In this document: in pieces, positions 5,253 to 34,426 of the stretch
Layout: every line of letters begins with the position of its first letter
Numbering within the stretch: position 1 is the first letter of the stretch
IMG/VR virus record: IMGVR_UViG_3300020185_005105
Location: 1-36,636 of that record
Origin: a virus
Reading direction: 5' to 3' (one strand)
DNA length: 36,636 nucleotides
Translations under genes and position numbers: made by a program
The notes under the pieces: model-generated
What the model was told of the DNA's origin: nothing
What the model saw: only the letters and a program-made list of their open reading frames with translations
The model's database searches: none

Positions 5253-8200
5253 ATGGCAGTAGGAGCAGGATTAAGAACACATGTAGTTGGCTTAAGAGAA
5301 GACATTGAGCGAATAGTCGCTGGCGTCAACAGAAAAGGAATAGTTATTAGGGTTAGAGCTAGTGACTTTACCCAGCCTTTAGGGCGCATGTCAGCAAAAG
5401 CTAACGAGTTCAGTAAATCTCTAGAAGCCTCTAATGCTCGCGTTATAGCCTTCGGCGCATCTGCAGCAATTATTGGTGGAGTTACAACCTCTTTTGCTCA
5501 ACTCTTCGTACAGGCTCAAAAAGTTGAAAAAATTCTTACAGATATTAATGTTGTTCTTGGCACAACTGCAAGCAATCTTCAGAAATTTGGTGACGGTTTA
5601 TTTAAAGTCGCAAAAAATACATCCCAAGCGCTAGAGGTTGCCGCAGAGGCGGCTTTAGAATTTTCTCGTCAAGGTTTATCAATGGAAGAAACCCTCAAAA
5701 GAACAAATGATGCCCTTATTTTGACGAGATTAACGGGAATAAAAGCTGCAGACGCCGTAAAAGGTTTAACTGCAGCAGTTAATGGTTTTGCCGATGCGGG
5801 GTTATCAACCACGCAAATAATTAATAAACTTGCCGCTGTAGATGTAAAATTTGCTGTCAGCGCTGACGATTTAGTTGACGCTCTCGCTCGCGCTGGAGCA
5901 GTCGCTCAAGATGCGGGTGTTAGTTTTGACCAACTAATAGGATCTGTTACTGCAGCTCAACAAATTACAGCTCGAGGTGGCGCAGTTATAGGTAATAGTT
6001 TTAAAACAATTTTTACAAGAATCCAAAGGAGTAGTACAATCACGAGGTTGGAAGAGCTTGGGGTTGCTGTTCGAGACATTCGAGGTAACACATTGCCTGC
6101 AATTACGGTTTTGACAAACTTATCAAAAGCTTACGATCAACTCGGAGACACAACAAAGGCAGCTGTAGCGGAACAAGTTGGTGGCGTTTTTCAAATCAAT
6201 ATATTAAAAGCGGCACTTAAAGATTTAGGCAATGAAACATCCCTATACGCTCAAGCTACGAAAATATCTAGTCAAGCGACAGACGAAGCGCAAAGAAAAA
6301 ACGATCAACTACAAAAAACATTAGCAGCAATCTCTAATCAAAGCTTCACAAATCTTAGAGAACTAACTGCAAATTTAGGTGAATTAACTGTAGCACCCGC
6401 CCTAAAGGAATTCCTTAAGAGTTTTAATCAAATAGCTGAAGTTATGAGTAAACTATTTGGTTCAGAAGAAGGCGAAAGCATAGGTGGCGATTTTGCTAAA
6501 GGATTCGCTAGAGCTTTCGGTTCCGTATTAACAGGTCCTGGCTTAATGGTTGGAGCTTTAATTTTTGGCAAATTATTTCAAATGGCTTTTAAGTTTGCTA
6601 AAAATTCGGTAAAAGATATTTTACAAATAAAAACGATCAAAGATCAAGAGCTTGCCATTCAGGAAGCTATTGTTGATGCTATGGTTCAAAATGTAGCCTT
6701 AAACAAAGAATTATTCAAATTAGACGGCGACCAATTAAAGCAAGAGCAAGTCATGTTAAAATTGCTTAGCAAACAAACTGCATTTCTAGAAAAGCAAAGG
6801 CAAATAGCCTCATCTATAGCACCAGGCTTAAGGGTGGCTGGCGTAAATGAAAATTTAACCGTCACAAAAGGATCGAAAAGTAAAAATCAAAAATCTGAAG
6901 GCTTTATACCTAATTATGCATCCAAAAATGCAGCAAATAACTACGGTGGAGTTACTCCATTGGAGAAGCAGTCCGAGTTAGCTGGAGCAATGAAGGCTGG
7001 ATATCAGCCAGGCTCCATTAAATCAACTAATATAAATGGCCTAGGGAGAGTGATTTATAATGACGCGGAAACTATCAAGCAGTTCCCAAATTTAAATCAG
7101 CCAGCAATCATGCCTCCACTGAACTCAAAAGCTGGCAGAAATTATAAGGTCGACTTTAGGGCTAAGCATGGATTCAATCCTTATGAGCAAGGTGGCAGTA
7201 ATAACTCAACTTATAGTAACGGTTTTATTTCTAATTTTGCCGCCCAACCTATGGCTGTAAAATCTGCAATTCGCGCTGCCCTTAAAAAAAGAGGGGCTAG
7301 AATGCGGCCCAATGACCCCAAGCTTGATTTTCATGTTCAAAGATATTTATCGGCGACGAAAAATCGCGACTTCCCCAATGAATTCATAAATATAGGTGGC
7401 CATAAAATTAACATGAATGAAATAACCTTAGCCTTAAAAAAGCAAGGTGGCTACCATAATTCTTTTAATGAAAGTAAAGCAATTAACCTTCAGGGTAGTT
7501 CAAACAACGAAACTTATAATAGCGGCTTGATACCTAATTTTGCGCTTGCAGCGCAAAGGCTTGGAAACACAAATATTTTAAGGTTGCCGACTGCTAAAAT
7601 GGTCACTCAAACTACTCAATCAGACTTCAAAGGAAATAAAGTAAAAGGCTGGCGCACTCTTGAAGCTCCGCTTGATAACGTTTTAAAGTTCGCGGCCAGT
7701 TACAAGAAACAATTTCAAGCATTAAAAAGTTTAGGTTTTAACTCCTTGCAAAGAAAAATGTATTTTGGTAATCAGCCAGAAACATTAACAAGGTCAGATA
7801 GGCAAGGTTTGCGTAGTAAAAATTTAAATAAAAAAGGTGATACGTATGAGGGAGTATTGTTTAAAAGTGGACTTAAAAATAAAGGCTACTCCAGAACTTA
7901 TGATCCAGATTCAAAGCAAGGGTACAAGAATGCTACGGTTGATTTTGCGAAGTCTGGTAAAATCCCAATTGAGGCTAAATTCGGCAAATTTGTTCCCGCT
8001 AATTTGTTAGCTAAAAGCATAAGGCTATCTAAAGATAAATATATAGAAAATTTTTTATCAAGCAAACGTTTTTCAGGCTTAGCTGCTGAAATGTCTGACA
8101 AGAAATTAGGGGAAGCTAAGAACACTCTCGATAAAATGGGCTTCCCAGATGCCAACAGTAATTTAATTGATACAATGGGCCTATCAAGCGGTTTTATTCC

Positions 8201-27137: not shown

Positions 27138-28205
27138 ATGAATGTACTATTAACTGCAAGCTTCGACAAAGGATTGTTCACCAACGGACTACAGCAAAAT
27201 ATTGTTTTTTTAGCTGAACTATTGCAGGATATAGGGCATACCCCTATAGTGGCGGTAAATCATAGTATCGATAAATGTGTAGACCCTCCTACAGGCATTC
27301 TAATTATAGAAGAAAAAGAAATCCTCGACTATGATTACGGTTACATTTGCCAAACAGGATATGTATTAGATAATCAGATGGTCGACAAAATTAAAGATAA
27401 AAATCCCGACACTAAAAATATACATATTCACTATGGCAACAGAATGCTTGCTGATATAGAGCAATGCAAATGGGACAATATTGCAATCTCTGGTCACAAA
27501 GTTGATGAGATATGGACATCGCCCCACTATGAAATAGCGATACCATACTTCAAGGCTTACTATAATACTCAAAAAGTCTTTGTGCTGCCTTATATTTGGG
27601 AGCCAAAATATATTGACATGCATGACAGGTTATGGACGAAAGCTGGCAAAAGCTGTAAATATGACCCCAAGAGACCGAAGAATATAGCCATAGTTGAGCC
27701 AAACTTAAACATGACAAAAAACTGCATGCCTTCTATTTTAATAGCCGAAGAAGCATTGCGCACCAATATTGATTTATTTGACAGGCTTACAGTTTATTGT
27801 TCTGACACAATTCGAGAAAAGAAATACTTTCGCTCTTGGATGTGGAATTTGAATTTACCAAAAGTTGGGAAAGTAGACTTTTCTCCAAGGAAAAGAATTT
27901 CAACCATCTTTTCATCAGAAGCCAATATAGTTATATCTCATCATTTAATGAACGCTTTAAATTATACTCACTTAGAAGCGCTTCACTTAAATATTCCATT
28001 AGTTCATAATTCAGAGTACATGAAAGGTGCGGGATATTATTATCCTGATTATGACATCCAAAAAGGGGCAAAGCAATTAATTGACGCTCTTACTTATCAT
28101 AATCAAAATTTAGAAGAATATAAATCTAGAGCAGAAAAAATAAAATATCAATTTTCGAGGCACAACCCCTTAGTTAAAGCGGAATATAAAAAATTATTTT
28201 CATAA
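27138..28205 (+). CDS. DUF2827-type glycosyltransferase-like protein, copy 1 (355 aa)
   Basis: Matches the DUF2827 family by its N-terminal FTNGLQQNIVFLAELLQDIG, the mid-protein IAIVEPNLNMTKNCMPSILI and the C-terminal HLEALHLNIPLVHNSEYMKG followed by GYYYPDYD. That last stretch is the family's counterpart of the sugar-nucleotide-binding end of GT-B enzymes. The family is uncharacterised; a GT-B-like glycosyltransferase role is inferred from fold-level similarity and from the surrounding glycosyltransferases. The next gene is a clear paralogue starting at the stop. A GTGTA string lies 15 bases before the ATG. Family membership is confident; substrate unknown. Confidence 0.85.
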   Translation: MNVLLTASFDKGLFTNGLQQNIVFLAELLQDIGHTPIVAVNHSIDKCVDPPTGILIIEEKEILDYDYGYICQTGYVLDNQMVDKIKDKNPDTKNIHIHYGNRMLADIEQCKWDNIAISGHKVDEIWTSPHYEIAIPYFKAYYNTQKVFVLPYIWEPKYIDMHDRLWTKAGKSCKYDPKRPKNIAIVEPNLNMTKNCMPSILIAEEALRTNIDLFDRLTVYCSDTIREKKYFRSWMWNLNLPKVGKVDFSPRKRISTIFSSEANIVISHHLMNALNYTHLEALHLNIPLVHNSEYMKGAGYYYPDYDIQKGAKQLIDALTYHNQNLEEYKSRAEKIKYQFSRHNPLVKAEYKKLFS

Positions 28206-29303
28206 ATGAAGATTGGTATAACTTTAGATATGTCTATAGCATTCTGGGCAAATGGAATGCAACAAAACATTGTCTTTCTTTATAGCCTATTAAAACAAAT
28301 ACCAGAAAATGATTGCTATTACATAACTCACAAAAAACCAGCTTACATTTTAAATAAAAAACATCAAGGCATGATGCTCGACGACCTCATGTCAGATGAT
28401 GGAGAGGCATTGGACGCTTTAATTATTGCTGGCTTTGATCTTCTTCCAGAAATGTATGATAAATTAAAGCAAAGAAATCCTAATATTAAAATTATATTAA
28501 TTCACTTCGGCAATAAACTAATGGACGATATTCATTATACAGTAGCTCCATCAAACTATAAAAAACAGCCCATTACTCCACCAAAATATTTATCTCAAAT
28601 CTGGATATCGCCCCATCATGAATACGGCAAAGAATATATAAAAACTTATTACCAGCATGAAGATGTTAGAGTTATACCTTATATATGGGATCCTTATTTT
28701 GTACAAGAAAAAATAAAAGAATTAAAAAATAAAAATTTATCACCATTTTTTAGCGCAGAAAAAAGTCGATCTGTCTGCGTTTTTGAGCCAAACATTTCTC
28801 ATCTAAAAAACTGTATTATTCCTGTCGCAATATGTGAAAGATTTGATTCACTACATCCCGATAAATTAAATGCGATCAATGTATTCTCTACCGATAGAAT
28901 TAGAGAAAAAGAGTATTTCTCCTCGTTAATGAAAAAATTTAAAATAGTGCAAAAAAAAGATTTTATATTTTTTAATAATCGCTGGGGTAGTTTGGATGCA
29001 TTAAGTAAATTTGGCAGTATTGTTGTGAGTCACCAAATTAATAATGAATTGAATTATTCTCATTTTGAGACATTATACTTAGGTCTTCCTTTAATTCATA
29101 ATTCTCCTAGACTAGAAAGTCATGGATACTATTACCCTGAGTTTGACGTAAAAATGGGAGCCAATCAACTCATGAGCGCAGTATTAAACCATCAGATTGT
29201 CCAACAAGATTACCAAAGGGAATCAAGAGAGTTTCTTCTTCCCTTTAGCCCTTATAATCAAAAAAATGCAGGAATATATAATTTATATTTAAATGATGAT
29301 TAA
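28206..29303 (+). CDS. DUF2827-type glycosyltransferase-like protein, copy 2 (365 aa)
   Basis: A tandem paralogue of the preceding gene, with equivalent blocks in order: FWANGMQQNIVFLYSLLKQI, VFEPNISHLKNCIIPVAI, ELNYSHFETLYLGLPLIHNS and GYYYPEFDVKMGA. It begins directly after the upstream stop and overlaps the GT25 gene by 11 bp. The copies have diverged well beyond recent duplication, so they probably add different residues or linkages. It has no signal peptide, so it acts in the host cytoplasm if it is a sugar-nucleotide-dependent enzyme. Substrate and acceptor cannot be read from the sequence. Confidence 0.85.
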   Translation: MKIGITLDMSIAFWANGMQQNIVFLYSLLKQIPENDCYYITHKKPAYILNKKHQGMMLDDLMSDDGEALDALIIAGFDLLPEMYDKLKQRNPNIKIILIHFGNKLMDDIHYTVAPSNYKKQPITPPKYLSQIWISPHHEYGKEYIKTYYQHEDVRVIPYIWDPYFVQEKIKELKNKNLSPFFSAEKSRSVCVFEPNISHLKNCIIPVAICERFDSLHPDKLNAINVFSTDRIREKEYFSSLMKKFKIVQKKDFIFFNNRWGSLDALSKFGSIVVSHQINNELNYSHFETLYLGLPLIHNSPRLESHGYYYPEFDVKMGANQLMSAVLNHQIVQQDYQRESREFLLPFSPYNQKNAGIYNLYLNDD

Positions 29304-30429
29304 TAGAGTATCAAAATCTTTTTTTATTAATTTAGACCGCCGAACGGATAGATTAGACCATATACATAAAACTTTACCTTTTTATGCAGAAAGGTTTTCA
29401 GCTGTAGATGCTAAAGATCTTACATTGACTGAAGAAATTAAAAAGCTATTTCCAGAAAAATACCACCAACTCACAAAAGCAGAAATCGCATGCGCGTTAA
29501 GTCATTACAGATTATGGAAGCAATTAACTCAAGATAAAAATAGCAATAACTATCTAATTCTAGAGGATGATGTAGTTTTCGAGGATGGTTTTCTTGAATT
29601 ATGGAATAACAAATTTAGTCAAGATTTACCCAAAAACTTCATGATCGCTTATCTGGGTGGCTGCCAACCTTGGAATAAAACGCATTATCATAATGTACTT
29701 GAATATAAAAACAATCATTTTTTTACAGTAAAAAAGAACGACTTCTTCACTCCAAACGACTACTACTGGCATATGAACGCATCTTCATATATAGTCAGCA
29801 AGCAAGCCGCCTCCTTACTTTGCCAATGGGTTGAGCAGTTTGGCTTTAATGCTGCTTTTGATGTTTTCATTATAAAATTCCTAACAACAAATAAATTATT
29901 CTCAGCCCCAGATAGAATACTTCATTTAAATCCGCTAATGGCTAGGCAAATTCATGAAGCGAATGGAAATATCGAAGCCGATAAAAAGTCTGACTTAAGG
30001 TTCTGCAATGATCGATTTGAAAAAGAGGAAAAGCAAAAATTAAAATTAATCTGGCAGGTTGATCCAAATAACCTAAAACAAACCTATGAAACAGATTGGA
30101 TTAGAGAAATTTTTTCAGAGCTTGATTTAGAAGAAATTATCGACACAGAATTTAAGGTTGTATCTGATGATTCCATTATTGTATATACTGATATTTGGCC
30201 AGCCAGCAAAAAAGGTGGTGACCAAGACGCTTTATATCTTTACCTCGATAAAGCTGCCAAGCAAAATAATGTCTCCATTGTTCATTTAGGCGATGAATAC
30301 ACTCATGCACGGACTGATCATTATGAAAATTTTCGCAACACATTTCGCACAACTTACAATGAGTCTGTATCTCATATGAAAAATGTCACTCAAATACCAT
30401 TAGGCTACAAGCGAGGATTCCATGATTAG
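29293..30429 (+). CDS. GT25 glycosyltransferase fused to N-terminal half of an exostosin-like domain (378 aa)
   Basis: Residues ~1-225 are a glycosyltransferase family 25 domain (LPS galactosyltransferase-like): FFINLDRRTDRLDHI, AEIACALSHYRLWKQL and the acidic metal/sugar motif E91-D92-D93 in NYLILEDDVVFEDGF. From ~293 the protein changes to the start of an exostosin-like domain (DDSIIVYTDIWPASKKGGDQ to IPLGYKRGF) and stops at once (HD, TAG). The rest of that domain appears two genes on, so this protein carries only its N-terminal half. It overlaps the DUF2827 gene by 11 bp and the sulfotransferase gene by 8 bp. The GT25 call is secure; the exostosin half is supported by how well the two pieces join. 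Confidence 0.85.
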   Translation: MMINRVSKSFFINLDRRTDRLDHIHKTLPFYAERFSAVDAKDLTLTEEIKKLFPEKYHQLTKAEIACALSHYRLWKQLTQDKNSNNYLILEDDVVFEDGFLELWNNKFSQDLPKNFMIAYLGGCQPWNKTHYHNVLEYKNNHFFTVKKNDFFTPNDYYWHMNASSYIVSKQAASLLCQWVEQFGFNAAFDVFIIKFLTTNKLFSAPDRILHLNPLMARQIHEANGNIEADKKSDLRFCNDRFEKEEKQKLKLIWQVDPNNLKQTYETDWIREIFSELDLEEIIDTEFKVVSDDSIIVYTDIWPASKKGGDQDALYLYLDKAAKQNNVSIVHLGDEYTHARTDHYENFRNTFRTTYNESVSHMKNVTQIPLGYKRGFHD

Positions 30430-31012
30430 CCACGAACACAAATGTATATTTATACATGTACCCAAAACTGCTGGCGAAAGCATTGAAACCGCTTTGATGG
30501 GTCGGCCAAACTGGGAAAACGATGATCCGAATTACGCAAGCTTAGGCTTGCCAGAAGGCAGCGAGATTGGAAAAGATAAGCATTATACTATTGCCCAATG
30601 GAAAGATCACATCAACTTTACTAATTATTTCAAATTCTCTTTTGTTAGAAACCCATGGGATTCAGCTTATTCATTTTATAGATATAGAAAAGAAAGAGAT
30701 AAGTTTGATCACAGTTTTACAGATTGGGTGAAATTAATTAATCCTAAATTCTGGAAAGAATTCTTGTCTCCACTGAAATATGTTTTATTAAACAATAAAG
30801 AGGGCGTAGACTTTATTGGAAGGTTTGAAGATATTGAGGCTGACTGGGATTATATTTGCTATAGATTATCGCAAGACATAAAACTACCTCATATAAATAA
30901 GGGGGACAACCAATCAGATTATATTGATCACTATGACAGCATTTCTCGTGATATTGTCCATGAACATCTTAAGGAAGATATAGAGTATTTTAATTATAAA
31001 TTTGAAGGATGA
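30422..31012 (+). CDS. PAPS-dependent sulfotransferase (196 aa)
   Basis: A compact sulfotransferase-2-type protein. The 5'-phosphosulfate loop is IHVPKTAGESIE (K15 the expected catalytic/PAPS residue), and the 3'-phosphate site is FVRNPWDSAYSFY (R76, S84). FIGRFEDIEADWDYIC and PHINKGDN are typical later motifs. It would move sulfate from PAPS to a sugar hydroxyl, giving an anionic glycan. The ATG lies inside the last codons of the GT25 gene and the TGA overlaps the next ATG, so it is inserted without any spacer between two parts of an exostosin-like domain. Family assignment is confident; the acceptor sugar is unknown. Confidence 0.9.
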   Translation: MISHEHKCIFIHVPKTAGESIETALMGRPNWENDDPNYASLGLPEGSEIGKDKHYTIAQWKDHINFTNYFKFSFVRNPWDSAYSFYRYRKERDKFDHSFTDWVKLINPKFWKEFLSPLKYVLLNNKEGVDFIGRFEDIEADWDYICYRLSQDIKLPHINKGDNQSDYIDHYDSISRDIVHEHLKEDIEYFNYKFEG

Positions 31013-32757
31013 AAACAATTTTTGACAAACCCTATGTATGGTCTTTTTTGGGACAAGTAAAAGGAAAGCCAACGCGCGAAAATATGCTTGCGGAACTCAA
31101 GCAAGTTCGCGGCGAACATTTTATACATATCACTGAACGCTGGAACGATCAGAACCAAATAGACGTCAAAAAATATAAAGAAATACTATCTGATAGCATT
31201 TTTGTTCCTTGCCCTAGCGGTTGGGGCGGCGCGAGAGGTTTGAAGGATTGCTTTAGGTTATATGAGGCATTAGAGGCTGGATCTATACCTATTGTCGAAA
31301 AAGATGATTTCGCCTATTTCGATAAATTTTTTCCCAATCACCCAATTCTGCAAACTCCTGATGACTGGCTTGGTATAAGTGATGATATGGAGTCTTTACT
31401 TGAAGAACCAAAAAAATTGCAAGAATATAATGAGGCATTAATAAAATGGTGGCAAGACTACAAGTCAAACTTAAAAACAGAAATCAAAAATAAGTTTTTA
31501 AATTCAAAAAAAAATATTTCTGTTATTATTCCAACTATTTGGCAAGCCAATGAATACCTCAAGAAATCCTTAATATCGCTAGAGTCTAACGCTTTTATAT
31601 CTGAAGTTTTAATTGTAAACAATGAAGTCAGTCAAACCCCCAGTTGGATAAGTGTTTTCAAGAAAGTTAAAGTATTAAATCAGAAAAAAAATTTATATTT
31701 TAACGGCAGCTTAAATCTAGCCGTTCCACTGTGTCAATCAGAGTTATGTTGCGTCTTGAATGATGACGCCAATATAGATAACGAATGCTTTGAGTTTATG
31801 TTAAACCAAGATATGAATTCTGTTGGCGCAGTGTTTATAGACCCCGCATGCATCAAGGGAGAGGGCGTACCAGATAGCCATCTTTTTAGTGGCCGCAACT
31901 TTAATGATGAAAAACTCTTGAAGCCCTATGATGAATTCTTTAATCACGGGCCTGGTATGATATTTTTCTTAAAACCTCAAAACTTCAAACCTATACCAGA
32001 AGAATTAAAACATCACTGCGGAGATAGATATATCTTTCAGTCTAATAAAAACGCTGGACTTAAAAACCTCTTCATTCAGGGCTTTCAACTAAAAATACCA
32101 TCAGTAGGTTCCGCCAGTCGATGCAGCGCAAATATTGAATCTGTGATTCGTCAGGATTATGTAGCAAGAGATAAAATATTTAACCTAAAACAAGCAAAAA
32201 AAAATGTTTTTGAATACATCAAACTTGACTTAAATTATTCACCAAAAAATAAATGGAAAATTATTTCTCATAAATTGAAATCAGGGTCTGATATTTTGTG
32301 TGTTGGTGGTGATTTATTGCAGGTGAGCGACGATATTGATATTAAAAATATTTGCGAAAAAGATATAGATATAGCTTTATCAAAACACAATTATAGCGCT
32401 TGGGGTCAAAAACTAGAAGGGGAGTTGTCGTCTTGTTTTATATACATTAAAAGCACCCCTCAGACTATTAATTTAATTGATAGTTTATTGTTTCAAATAG
32501 AGGGTATTAAAACTGATCAAAGATTTTTTAGTTATTCTGAGCAATATATTGACCTCGCTTTAGAAAAATCATTAACTGCAAGCAATATCAAATTTCAATC
32601 AATTCCAAATGATAAATTTGCTGTATCTGAAGAAATATACGGCAAAAATATAGAACATTACAAATCCAATCCTCCTGCTTATATTAATTTTGATAGAAAT
32701 GTATATACAGAAGAATTAAAAAAAATATATTTTAATGCGTATACTAATATTAAATGA
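31009..32757 (+). CDS. Exostosin-like C-terminal half + GT2-type glycosyltransferase + third GT-A-like domain (582 aa)
   Basis: Residues ~1-160 are the second half of an exostosin-like domain, beginning abruptly (KPYVWSFLGQVKGKPTREN, SDSIFVPCPSGWGG, LYEALEAGSIPIVEKDDFAY). These are the family's central and C-terminal motifs with no N-terminal part. Residues ~168-390 resemble a GT2-type domain (ISVIIPTIWQANEYLKKSL; VLNDDANID with D252-D253 as the DxD-like acid pair). Residues ~398-582 look like a third, GT-A-like region (SGSDILCVGGDLLQVSDDID) with a degraded metal motif. The start overlaps the sulfotransferase stop; the end overlaps the next gene by 23 bp. First two assignments are good; the third is tentative. 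Confidence 0.85.
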   Translation: MKTIFDKPYVWSFLGQVKGKPTRENMLAELKQVRGEHFIHITERWNDQNQIDVKKYKEILSDSIFVPCPSGWGGARGLKDCFRLYEALEAGSIPIVEKDDFAYFDKFFPNHPILQTPDDWLGISDDMESLLEEPKKLQEYNEALIKWWQDYKSNLKTEIKNKFLNSKKNISVIIPTIWQANEYLKKSLISLESNAFISEVLIVNNEVSQTPSWISVFKKVKVLNQKKNLYFNGSLNLAVPLCQSELCCVLNDDANIDNECFEFMLNQDMNSVGAVFIDPACIKGEGVPDSHLFSGRNFNDEKLLKPYDEFFNHGPGMIFFLKPQNFKPIPEELKHHCGDRYIFQSNKNAGLKNLFIQGFQLKIPSVGSASRCSANIESVIRQDYVARDKIFNLKQAKKNVFEYIKLDLNYSPKNKWKIISHKLKSGSDILCVGGDLLQVSDDIDIKNICEKDIDIALSKHNYSAWGQKLEGELSSCFIYIKSTPQTINLIDSLLFQIEGIKTDQRFFSYSEQYIDLALEKSLTASNIKFQSIPNDKFAVSEEIYGKNIEHYKSNPPAYINFDRNVYTEELKKIYFNAYTNIK

Positions 32758-34426
32758 TAGACCTTGGCATTATGAGTGCTATATTCATATTATTGATTTT
32801 TGCATAGCATACAATATAGAAGTTGATATTTTAGAAGCTTATTCAGATTCTTTGGGTGTTAAAGAATTTTACTTAAATCATTTTAGAGACAATATAAGGT
32901 ATGTTAAGGGAGTTAATAAATTAAAAGACAAATGTCTAGCTGATCCATTTACTAACATTAAATATGATAAAGTTTTTTTAGTTACCGATAACTTTATTAA
33001 AACGCAATATTTTAATTACTTTAAAAGTTTAGAGCCCAACTCAAGCGCTGACGATCAATTAATATTCATAGATCATTCTAATGAAATTCGAAACCGATTC
33101 TCTAACCATATTGACATAAGACATTTTCCAGACAAAAATAATAACTATGCTTATACATGCATTGATTTAATCTCAAAAGAAGAAAAGCAAGAATTTTTAT
33201 CACAAGAAAAACAAACCAACATATTAATATCAGCTAATCCAAGCAACATTAATATCACCAAAGAAATACAAACCTTAAATGATATTAATCCCAATGCTCA
33301 TATCCATTGGGTGTCACGCGATTTATCAAAACTAAAACAATTTAAACTCAATAACATATCTTACTATGAGTCATTAAATCAGACTGAATTAAATGAACTA
33401 TTTAAAAAATCCCATTATGTTTATGTTCCAAAATACCACAATAAAAATTATCGAACCGAATCAACAACTGGCATTTTAGGATTTGCTTACAGCTATTTGT
33501 GTCAAGTCGTATGGGGAGGCGCAAATTATAACAAGCATTACAGGCTATATTCTCCATTCGAATATTCTAAAGGTTTAGGTGTAGATGATAATTCAAATAT
33601 CAACTTAGTAGCAAAAGAACGCCGTGAACTCATAAATCATAGAAATAAAGTTTTTTCTAGCTTCCTTACTGAAAGCAAAATAAATTTATTATATTTCAAG
33701 GGCAGGAATTTTGGTAATTTTGGAGACGAACTTTCTCCATATATTGTAAAAAAAATTCTTAATAATGAAAATATAGCCGAAAACGGCAACCCAGAAAACC
33801 ATAAAAAAAATTTAATAGCGCTCGGGTCGTATATTCAAACAGCTCAGGATAATTTTTATATATTTGGGTCGGGAGTTAGAGCTTTGTTCCATGATCTCAA
33901 TTTTAACAAATTAAATATTATAAGTGTTCGTGGACCATTAACCAGAAAAGTCTTGTTGGCAAAAAATATTGATTGCCCACAGGTTTACGGGGATCCAGCT
34001 CTACTTCTCCCAGAGTTTTACCAACCAGATAAAATCACGAATCTATCAAGAAAAATTGGCGTAGTTCCGCATCTGAGTCAAATTCAAAATTTTAAAAACC
34101 CTAACCCTGCAAAGTATTTTATTATTGATCCTACCCAATATTGGAAAGTTGTCATTGATCAAATTTATTCATGTAAATGTGTTTTAGCTTCATCTCTACA
34201 TGGGTTGATTTGTGCTGATGCATACAATATCCCCAATTTGTGGTTTAGGCAAAAAATTCAAGAGGGTAATTTTAAATTCTTAGATTATTTCGCTAGCCAA
34301 GGTAGGAAAAAAGTTTATATTTCAAGTTTAGAAGAATTCTGTGAATCAAAGTTGTATAATGACGGCAATAAAATTGACATGAATATAGCATTAAAAAAAT
34401 TTAAAAACAGTAATTTATTGAAATGA
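32735..34426 (+). CDS. GT-B-like domain fused to polysaccharide pyruvyl transferase (563 aa)
   Basis: The C-terminal ~250 residues match the polysaccharide pyruvyl transferase family: NFGDELSPYIV (G330-D331-E332), LIALGSYIQTAQDNFYIFGS, SVRGPLTRKVLLAKNIDCPQ, VYGDPALLLPEFY, and SSLHGLICADAYNIP with H489. Such enzymes add a pyruvate ketal to a sugar using PEP. The N-terminal ~310 residues look like a separate glycosyltransferase (start MRILILNDRPWHYECYIHII; later HYVYVPKYHNKNYRTESTTG and VVWGGANYNK), probably GT-B, though I do not recognise the family. ATG 32735 lies inside the previous gene. Pyruvyl transferase call is strong; the N-terminal call is moderate. Confidence 0.85.
   Translation: MRILILNDRPWHYECYIHIIDFCIAYNIEVDILEAYSDSLGVKEFYLNHFRDNIRYVKGVNKLKDKCLADPFTNIKYDKVFLVTDNFIKTQYFNYFKSLEPNSSADDQLIFIDHSNEIRNRFSNHIDIRHFPDKNNNYAYTCIDLISKEEKQEFLSQEKQTNILISANPSNINITKEIQTLNDINPNAHIHWVSRDLSKLKQFKLNNISYYESLNQTELNELFKKSHYVYVPKYHNKNYRTESTTGILGFAYSYLCQVVWGGANYNKHYRLYSPFEYSKGLGVDDNSNINLVAKERRELINHRNKVFSSFLTESKINLLYFKGRNFGNFGDELSPYIVKKILNNENIAENGNPENHKKNLIALGSYIQTAQDNFYIFGSGVRALFHDLNFNKLNIISVRGPLTRKVLLAKNIDCPQVYGDPALLLPEFYQPDKITNLSRKIGVVPHLSQIQNFKNPNPAKYFIIDPTQYWKVVIDQIYSCKCVLASSLHGLICADAYNIPNLWFRQKIQEGNFKFLDYFASQGRKKVYISSLEEFCESKLYNDGNKIDMNIALKKFKNSNLLK

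Follow-up and report, generated by a model that had tools for sequence, protein, structure and literature searches.

We propose that a phage exostosin/RXYLT1-like glycosyltransferase of the GT-B fold is natively split into two genes whose products assemble in trans, and that the junction between the genes serves as a slot for the exchange of cargo; we put the probability of this reading at roughly 0.75. The enzyme is encoded in a 36.6-kb IMG/VR virus record (IMGVR_UViG_3300020185_005105, positions 1 to 36,636), a metagenomic contig referred to below, at its whole length, as the window. Its N-terminal half (exoN) ends an open reading frame (ORF) of 378 aa (29293-30429) and its C-terminal half (exoC) starts an ORF of 582 aa (31009-32757), with a sulfotransferase ORF of 196 aa (30422-31012) between them. 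The stop and start codons overlap by 8 bp at the first boundary (ATGATTAG, 30422-30429) and by 4 bp at the second (ATGA, 31009-31012). A first-pass annotation of the window had described the three ORFs, the coupling of the sulfotransferase to both pieces by these overlaps and the motifs at the broken ends, all of which were found exactly where it placed them. The split, its conservation, its distribution in a single clade, the key residues, purifying selection and the turnover of cargo at the junction can be read at the sequence level; from these features we infer physical assembly of exoN with exoC, enzymatic activity and translational coupling.

Assignment of exoN and exoC to one domain

The RXYLT1_C family (PF24785) matched exoC with 50.1 bits (curated cut-off, 27) over residues 6-159 of the 582-aa protein. 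Exostosin_GT47 (PF03016) matched exoC alone with 24.2 bits over model positions 171-260, under the curated cut-off of 33.4. When exoN was placed before exoC, this match extended across the junction (model positions 140-260) and reached 30.4 bits, which is still below the cut-off. exoN alone, the C-terminal ~129 aa of the 378-aa protein, had no exostosin family match in Pfam. A profile built from split exoN sequences only matched the N-terminal half of L010, a joined single-chain protein of a Pelagibacteraceae genome, with an E-value of 1.7e-9 (40 bits); the best of the shuffled decoys scored 6.9 bits against it. The query with exoN before exoC aligned to L010 over residues 1-280. These matches indicate that exoN and exoC are the N- and C-terminal halves of one exostosin/RXYLT1-like GT-B glycosyltransferase, in agreement with the first-pass annotation. 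It had also stated that the motifs lie close together in intact homologues, and in L010 GYKSG and YLWSF are ~12 residues apart.

Uninterrupted homologues that can be aligned across the junction, which the annotation had recommended looking for, were found in two Pelagibacterales genomes (L010 and G283) and in many more distant phages. Close joined relatives were present in 2 of the 297 genomes of the order around L010, namely L010 and G283. In the more distant relatives, exoC begins at least 113 residues into an ORF, that is, it is joined, contig-end fragments excepted. The joined relative in G283 (L192, 1495-2373; 292 aa, 46% to L010) adjoins a sigma-factor-like gene.

A probable single split with varied contents in the slot

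When the whole protein of ORF 31009-32757 was compared by tblastn with a phage collection, no match was obtained, and a fused exoN-exoC query gave weak matches only, in phages and plasmids, indicating that this lineage is barely represented among sequenced isolates. The first relatives beyond a sister contig, L002 (IMGVR_UViG_3300022909_002166), were obtained by an alignment-based scan, and further contigs by scans with separate alignments of exoN and of exoC. The resulting set, all from uncultured tailed phages, comprises 16 IMG/VR contigs including the window, two pairs of which are near-duplicates. In 16/16 the halves are encoded by different ORFs, always with exoN before exoC, and neither a joined form nor a lone half was found among them.

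The contents of the slot vary. It is empty in six of the 16 contigs, where the two ORFs overlap by 4 bp (L175, L178) or 8 bp (L173, L174, L103, L104). The cargo of the window and L002 is the sulfotransferase; L171 and L176 carry a GT34-like gene of 263 aa, and L180 and L181 a 245/246-aa gene of no known family; in L180 a domain of ~320 aa is also fused before exoC. In L177 and L179 exoC is preceded by a fused GT2 domain. In L172 exoN is followed by a fused GT32, and in L182 by a fused GT2-like domain, with GT32 in an ORF of its own. The 245/246-aa cargo proteins (L180, 6369-7106; L181, 6368-7108) are 43% identical to each other and have no Pfam match.

The exoC tree contains one split/joined change, and the split forms make up one clade with a Shimodaira-Hasegawa-like approximate likelihood ratio test (SH-aLRT) value of 83. 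Together with the varied slot contents, this indicates that a single old split accounts for the clade and that the sulfotransferase is one of several slot occupants. The first-pass annotation had supposed that the sulfotransferase was inserted into an intact gene. This did not hold, since the split is found in all 16 contigs, six slots are empty and the others carry unrelated cargo; rather, the sulfotransferase appears to have entered, or stayed in, a pre-existing gene boundary.

The distribution also bears on two other explanations. An assembly or sequencing artefact might be suspected because the contig is metagenomic, but the identical arrangement recurs in L002 among other flanking modules and 14 further contigs are split alike; the chance of a misassembly, which the annotation had raised, is thus close to nil. 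Ribosomal frameshifting or hopping could join the halves into one chain in vivo, as the overlap of just 4 or 8 bp in the empty slots might suggest. However, relative to exoN, exoC is in the -1 frame where the overlap is 4 bp (L175, L178) and in the +1 frame where it is 8 bp (L174, L103), and frameshift fusion was rejected because of this variation among members. In addition, cargo genes with their own stops intervene in most filled slots, and no Rfam intron or other RNA element was detected at 29000-33000 of the window. We give joining of this kind only a very slim chance.

Position of the cut and retention of catalytic residues

The joined L010 protein was modelled by AlphaFold2 with a predicted local distance difference test score (pLDDT) of 82 and a predicted template modelling score (pTM) of 0.82. 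The model has two domains (residues 1-116 and 137-285) connected by a poorly ordered linker (117-136), and it aligned over its full length to GT-B enzymes: Gtf3 (Z score 16.9, 267 residues), EXTL3 (14.8) and A075L (14.2). According to this model, the split falls in the linker between the two Rossmann domains. The exoN of the window modelled alone gave a pLDDT of 82 and a pTM of 0.81. Its best structural match was the N-domain of Gtf3, the top GT-B match of L010, with a middling Z score of 7.0; Foldseek with the exoN model returned no Protein Data Bank (PDB) match at E <= 0.001.

In the solved structures of A075L, the N-domain binds the acceptor and the C-domain the donor, Asp73 serves as the base, and uridine diphosphate is contacted by Arg158, Arg208 and Glu211 (PMC11571054). 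A profile of the joined relatives matched both domains of A075L (E 2e-10) and also EXT1 (E 3e-9). The Asp of the exoN motif HLGDE aligned with Asp73 of A075L, and R150, R205 and E208 of exoC with Arg158, Arg208 and Glu211 (residue numbers along the aligned chain are those of the paper + 3, consistently at all four positions). D82, E83 and G120 of exoN and R150, G197, R205, E208, E211 and P216 of exoC (L010 numbering) are invariant in 14/14 split phages. The ratio of nonsynonymous to synonymous substitution rates (dN/dS) is 0.04-0.30 in both halves, indicating purifying selection. Since the catalytic base in exoN and the donor Arg/Arg/Glu in exoC are all invariant, neither half should work alone.

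The first-pass annotation had offered two options, assembly of the halves in trans or a broken domain in an altered cassette, of which the former is the better one. Decaying remnants of a disrupted domain would be consistent with the stop codon and the foreign gene that separate the halves. In contrast, internal stops are absent, both halves are under purifying selection and keep the conserved residues, and the split clade is old and diverse. Retention of the catalytic base in one gene and the donor site in another argues against a remnant, and we allow decay a slim chance.

Turnover of cargo at the junction

Close relatives reveal where the cargo changes. L178, with an empty slot, and L177, with GT2, share 98.7% identity as far as position 6365 and 98.4% starting at 6372 (L178 positions), the two stretches being separated by a module of 726 bp, and L175 and L180 differ by a 1.7-kb module at the same junction. 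In these two pairs, cargo has been gained or lost exactly at the exoN/exoC junction. In L171/L176, the synonymous divergence (dS) is 0.17 for the GT34 cargo and 0.12 for the downstream part; that of exoN is 0.87 and that of exoC 0.77. exoN and exoC thus look like a matched pair around a young GT34 cargo. The block that is 97% identical between the window and L002 has its limits exactly at the start of exoN and the end of exoC, downstream of which the sequences diverge; the GT2 domain behind exoC in the window is missing from L002 (ORF 6001-7092). Directly upstream of exoN, L002 has 1.6 kb extra (pyruvyltransferase and GT32; L002 3437-5026 against window 29998-30034), which makes this domain boundary a second point of exchange.

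Direct repeats at the slot edges were clear in L176 only; L181 has an AT-rich one of 18 nt, and none was found at the slot edges of the window. The L176 repeat (6360-6382 and 7172-7194; 23 nt, 91%) contains a Shine-Dalgarno-like motif and a start codon, lies on both sides of the GT34 cargo and is possibly a recombination footprint.

The codons of the conserved exoN tail (GYK-K/R-GF) read AAGAAAGGATTT in most members, which resembles a Shine-Dalgarno sequence and lies immediately in front of the next start codon, whatever gene follows. Most relatives have AAAGGA/AAGGG, similar to GAGGA in the window. Sulfotransfer_2 (PF03567) spans the whole 196-aa cargo protein of the window (residues 1-193; 53.4 bits, curated cut-off 22). 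Its relatives in other phages have the same initial codons (ATGAT..) and are often directly adjacent to their neighbours or overlap them. Cargo may plausibly be exchanged as a portable, translationally coupled cistron. The sulfotransferase relatives (L184-L190; window 30422-31012) have common first (MISHEHKCIF) and last (DIEYFxYxF) residues and are found in tandem in L185 and L186. An unrelated-looking 264-aa protein of L186 (4210-5004) has the same MISHEHK start, suggesting cassettes with constant ends.

Assembly in trans or independent modules

The halves might instead be independent modules with other partners, exoN acting as an acceptor-binding or scaffold domain and exoC as a donor-binding domain that works with another N-domain of the multidomain proteins. 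They reside in different multidomain proteins, with GT32 or GT2-like domains in the same chain after exoN and GT2 or other domains before exoC, and they are sometimes exchanged separately. On the other hand, the catalytic base and donor residues are invariant across two separate genes, order and co-occurrence are fixed in 16/16, and the limits of the block shared by the window and L002 coincide with those of exoN and exoC. We regard independent modules as unlikely, although deserving of consideration.

Assembly in trans is itself opposed by several observations. The Z score of 7.0 for exoN is within the range reached by common alpha/beta folds, and the SH-aLRT value of 83 is only moderate support for a single origin. 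The distances of exoN and exoC correlate with r = 0.87, but the GT34 module correlates equally well (0.87 with exoN, 0.92 with exoC), indicating block linkage, not contact; the mirror-tree comparison was thus rejected as proof of contact. The halves have been re-paired between lineages in some pairs (L175/L176, 68% vs 90%), and the Shine-Dalgarno-like motif before exoC in the window has no spacing to the exoC ATG.

Proposed mechanism

In the favoured explanation of a split enzyme assembling in trans, an exostosin/RXYLT1/A075L-like GT-B gene would have been split once, in the clade ancestor, within the inter-Rossmann linker, leaving two cistrons that are now coupled by a stop/start overlap. exoN and exoC most likely assemble into one active enzyme, in which exoN would provide the acceptor side and the catalytic Asp and exoC would bind the nucleotide-sugar donor. 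The junction, being a gene boundary inside a dispensable linker, would be usable as a cargo slot, where glycan modules (sulfotransferase, GT34, GT2, GT32 and the 245-aa protein) could be gained or lost with both halves unharmed. The substrate is probably a phage-encoded glycan, because the cassette lies between tail genes.

More tentatively, the junction may be a standing exchange platform, where the split enzyme would bring the flanking multi-transferase proteins together in a single complex and so act as a scaffold for glycan assembly. The exoN tail codons (GYKKGF) would then be a ribosome-binding site for any following gene and cargo genes would carry their own stop/start overlap for exoC, so that phages could swap glycan-modifying activities there.

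Surroundings of the cassette

The features of the locus are listed in Table 1. The window contains lambda-like tail genes, between which the glycan cassette is located. Two tandem DUF2827 proteins precede it (27138-29303), as in nearly all relatives; the correlation of their divergence with that of the split enzyme is poor (r 0.28-0.42). Repeat-rich structural genes with SDISSLA-type and TPTITVSP-type repeats lie near both contig ends (35859-36635 and 2-535). They are likely tail fibre proteins and possibly the targets of the cassette.

Table 1. Features of the split glycosyltransferase locus in the window
Feature	Position	Strand	Basis
GT25 domain, 5' part of the ORF ending in exoN	29293..30036	+	Pfam PF01755, E 2e-25, residues 8-188
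exoN, predicted N-terminal Rossmann half of exostosin/RXYLT1-like GT-B enzyme	30040..30426	+	Profile, AlphaFold2, residue retention, A075L alignment
exoN-sulfotransferase-exoC block, 97% identical to L002	30035..31516	+	blastn blocks
GAGGA, Shine-Dalgarno-like, within codons of the exoN GYK(K/R)GF tail, before next cistron	30413..30417	+	Sequence; putative function
Complete sulfotransferase ORF (cargo)	30422..31012	+	Pfam PF03567, E 5e-14; PHROG 3347, E 3e-22; relatives with constant ends
exoC, predicted C-terminal nucleotide-sugar-binding Rossmann half, start of ORF 31009-32757	31009..31512	+	Pfam PF24785, E 3e-13; donor-site Arg/Arg/Glu
GT2 domain fused behind exoC	31519..31965	+	Pfam PF00535, E 2e-7

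Comparison with known systems

Natural split GT-B enzymes and phage genes in pieces are already known, separately. A075L of chlorovirus PBCV-1 (GT114, formerly exostosin/GT47; PDB 8ASA, 8AVQ and 8Q8I; PMC11571054) and human EXT1/EXT2/EXTL3 and RXYLT1 are GT-B enzymes of the same kind. They have both Rossmann domains in one chain, whereas the phage clade has two genes with cargo between them. In ALG13/ALG14 and bacterial EpsE/EpsF, too, a single old gene split between the Rossmann domains has left a GT-B enzyme with one acceptor-side and one donor-side subunit, and joined relatives exist; however, they belong to another sequence family, and no cargo slot between the genes was seen in the sections of the source covered here (PMC8993221). 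Their Pfam families had no match at E <= 1 to the proteins of ORFs 29293-30429 and 31009-32757.

Aeh1 NrdA, T4 topoisomerase gene 60 and phage 25 gene 43 (PMC2988022) are phage enzymes in two reassembling pieces, and in the gene 43 case an endonuclease may have invaded an already split gene (PMC2988022). As in such genes, both pieces of the glycosyltransferase are retained and under selection. The inserts there are a homing endonuclease or an untranslated spacer, whereas those in the split glycosyltransferase are varied glycan enzymes and the cut is exactly at the domain hinge. A homing endonuclease or intron as the cause of the split was not encountered: the insert of the window is a sulfotransferase, and other slots are empty or hold glycan enzymes. 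Literature searches of partial coverage, on split phage glycosyltransferases and on exostosin with phage, returned nothing relevant, and in the literature so covered no example was found of an old phage clade that retains a split glycosyltransferase and exchanges cargo genes at its hinge.

The matched empty and filled natural alleles could be used to study the assembly of split enzymes, and engineering could draw on the clade as a natural collection of split glycosyltransferase halves. Evolution would here treat half an enzyme as a movable module. If the junction is indeed an exchange platform, the assembly of the split enzyme would at the same time provide the scaffold for an assembly line of phage glycans.

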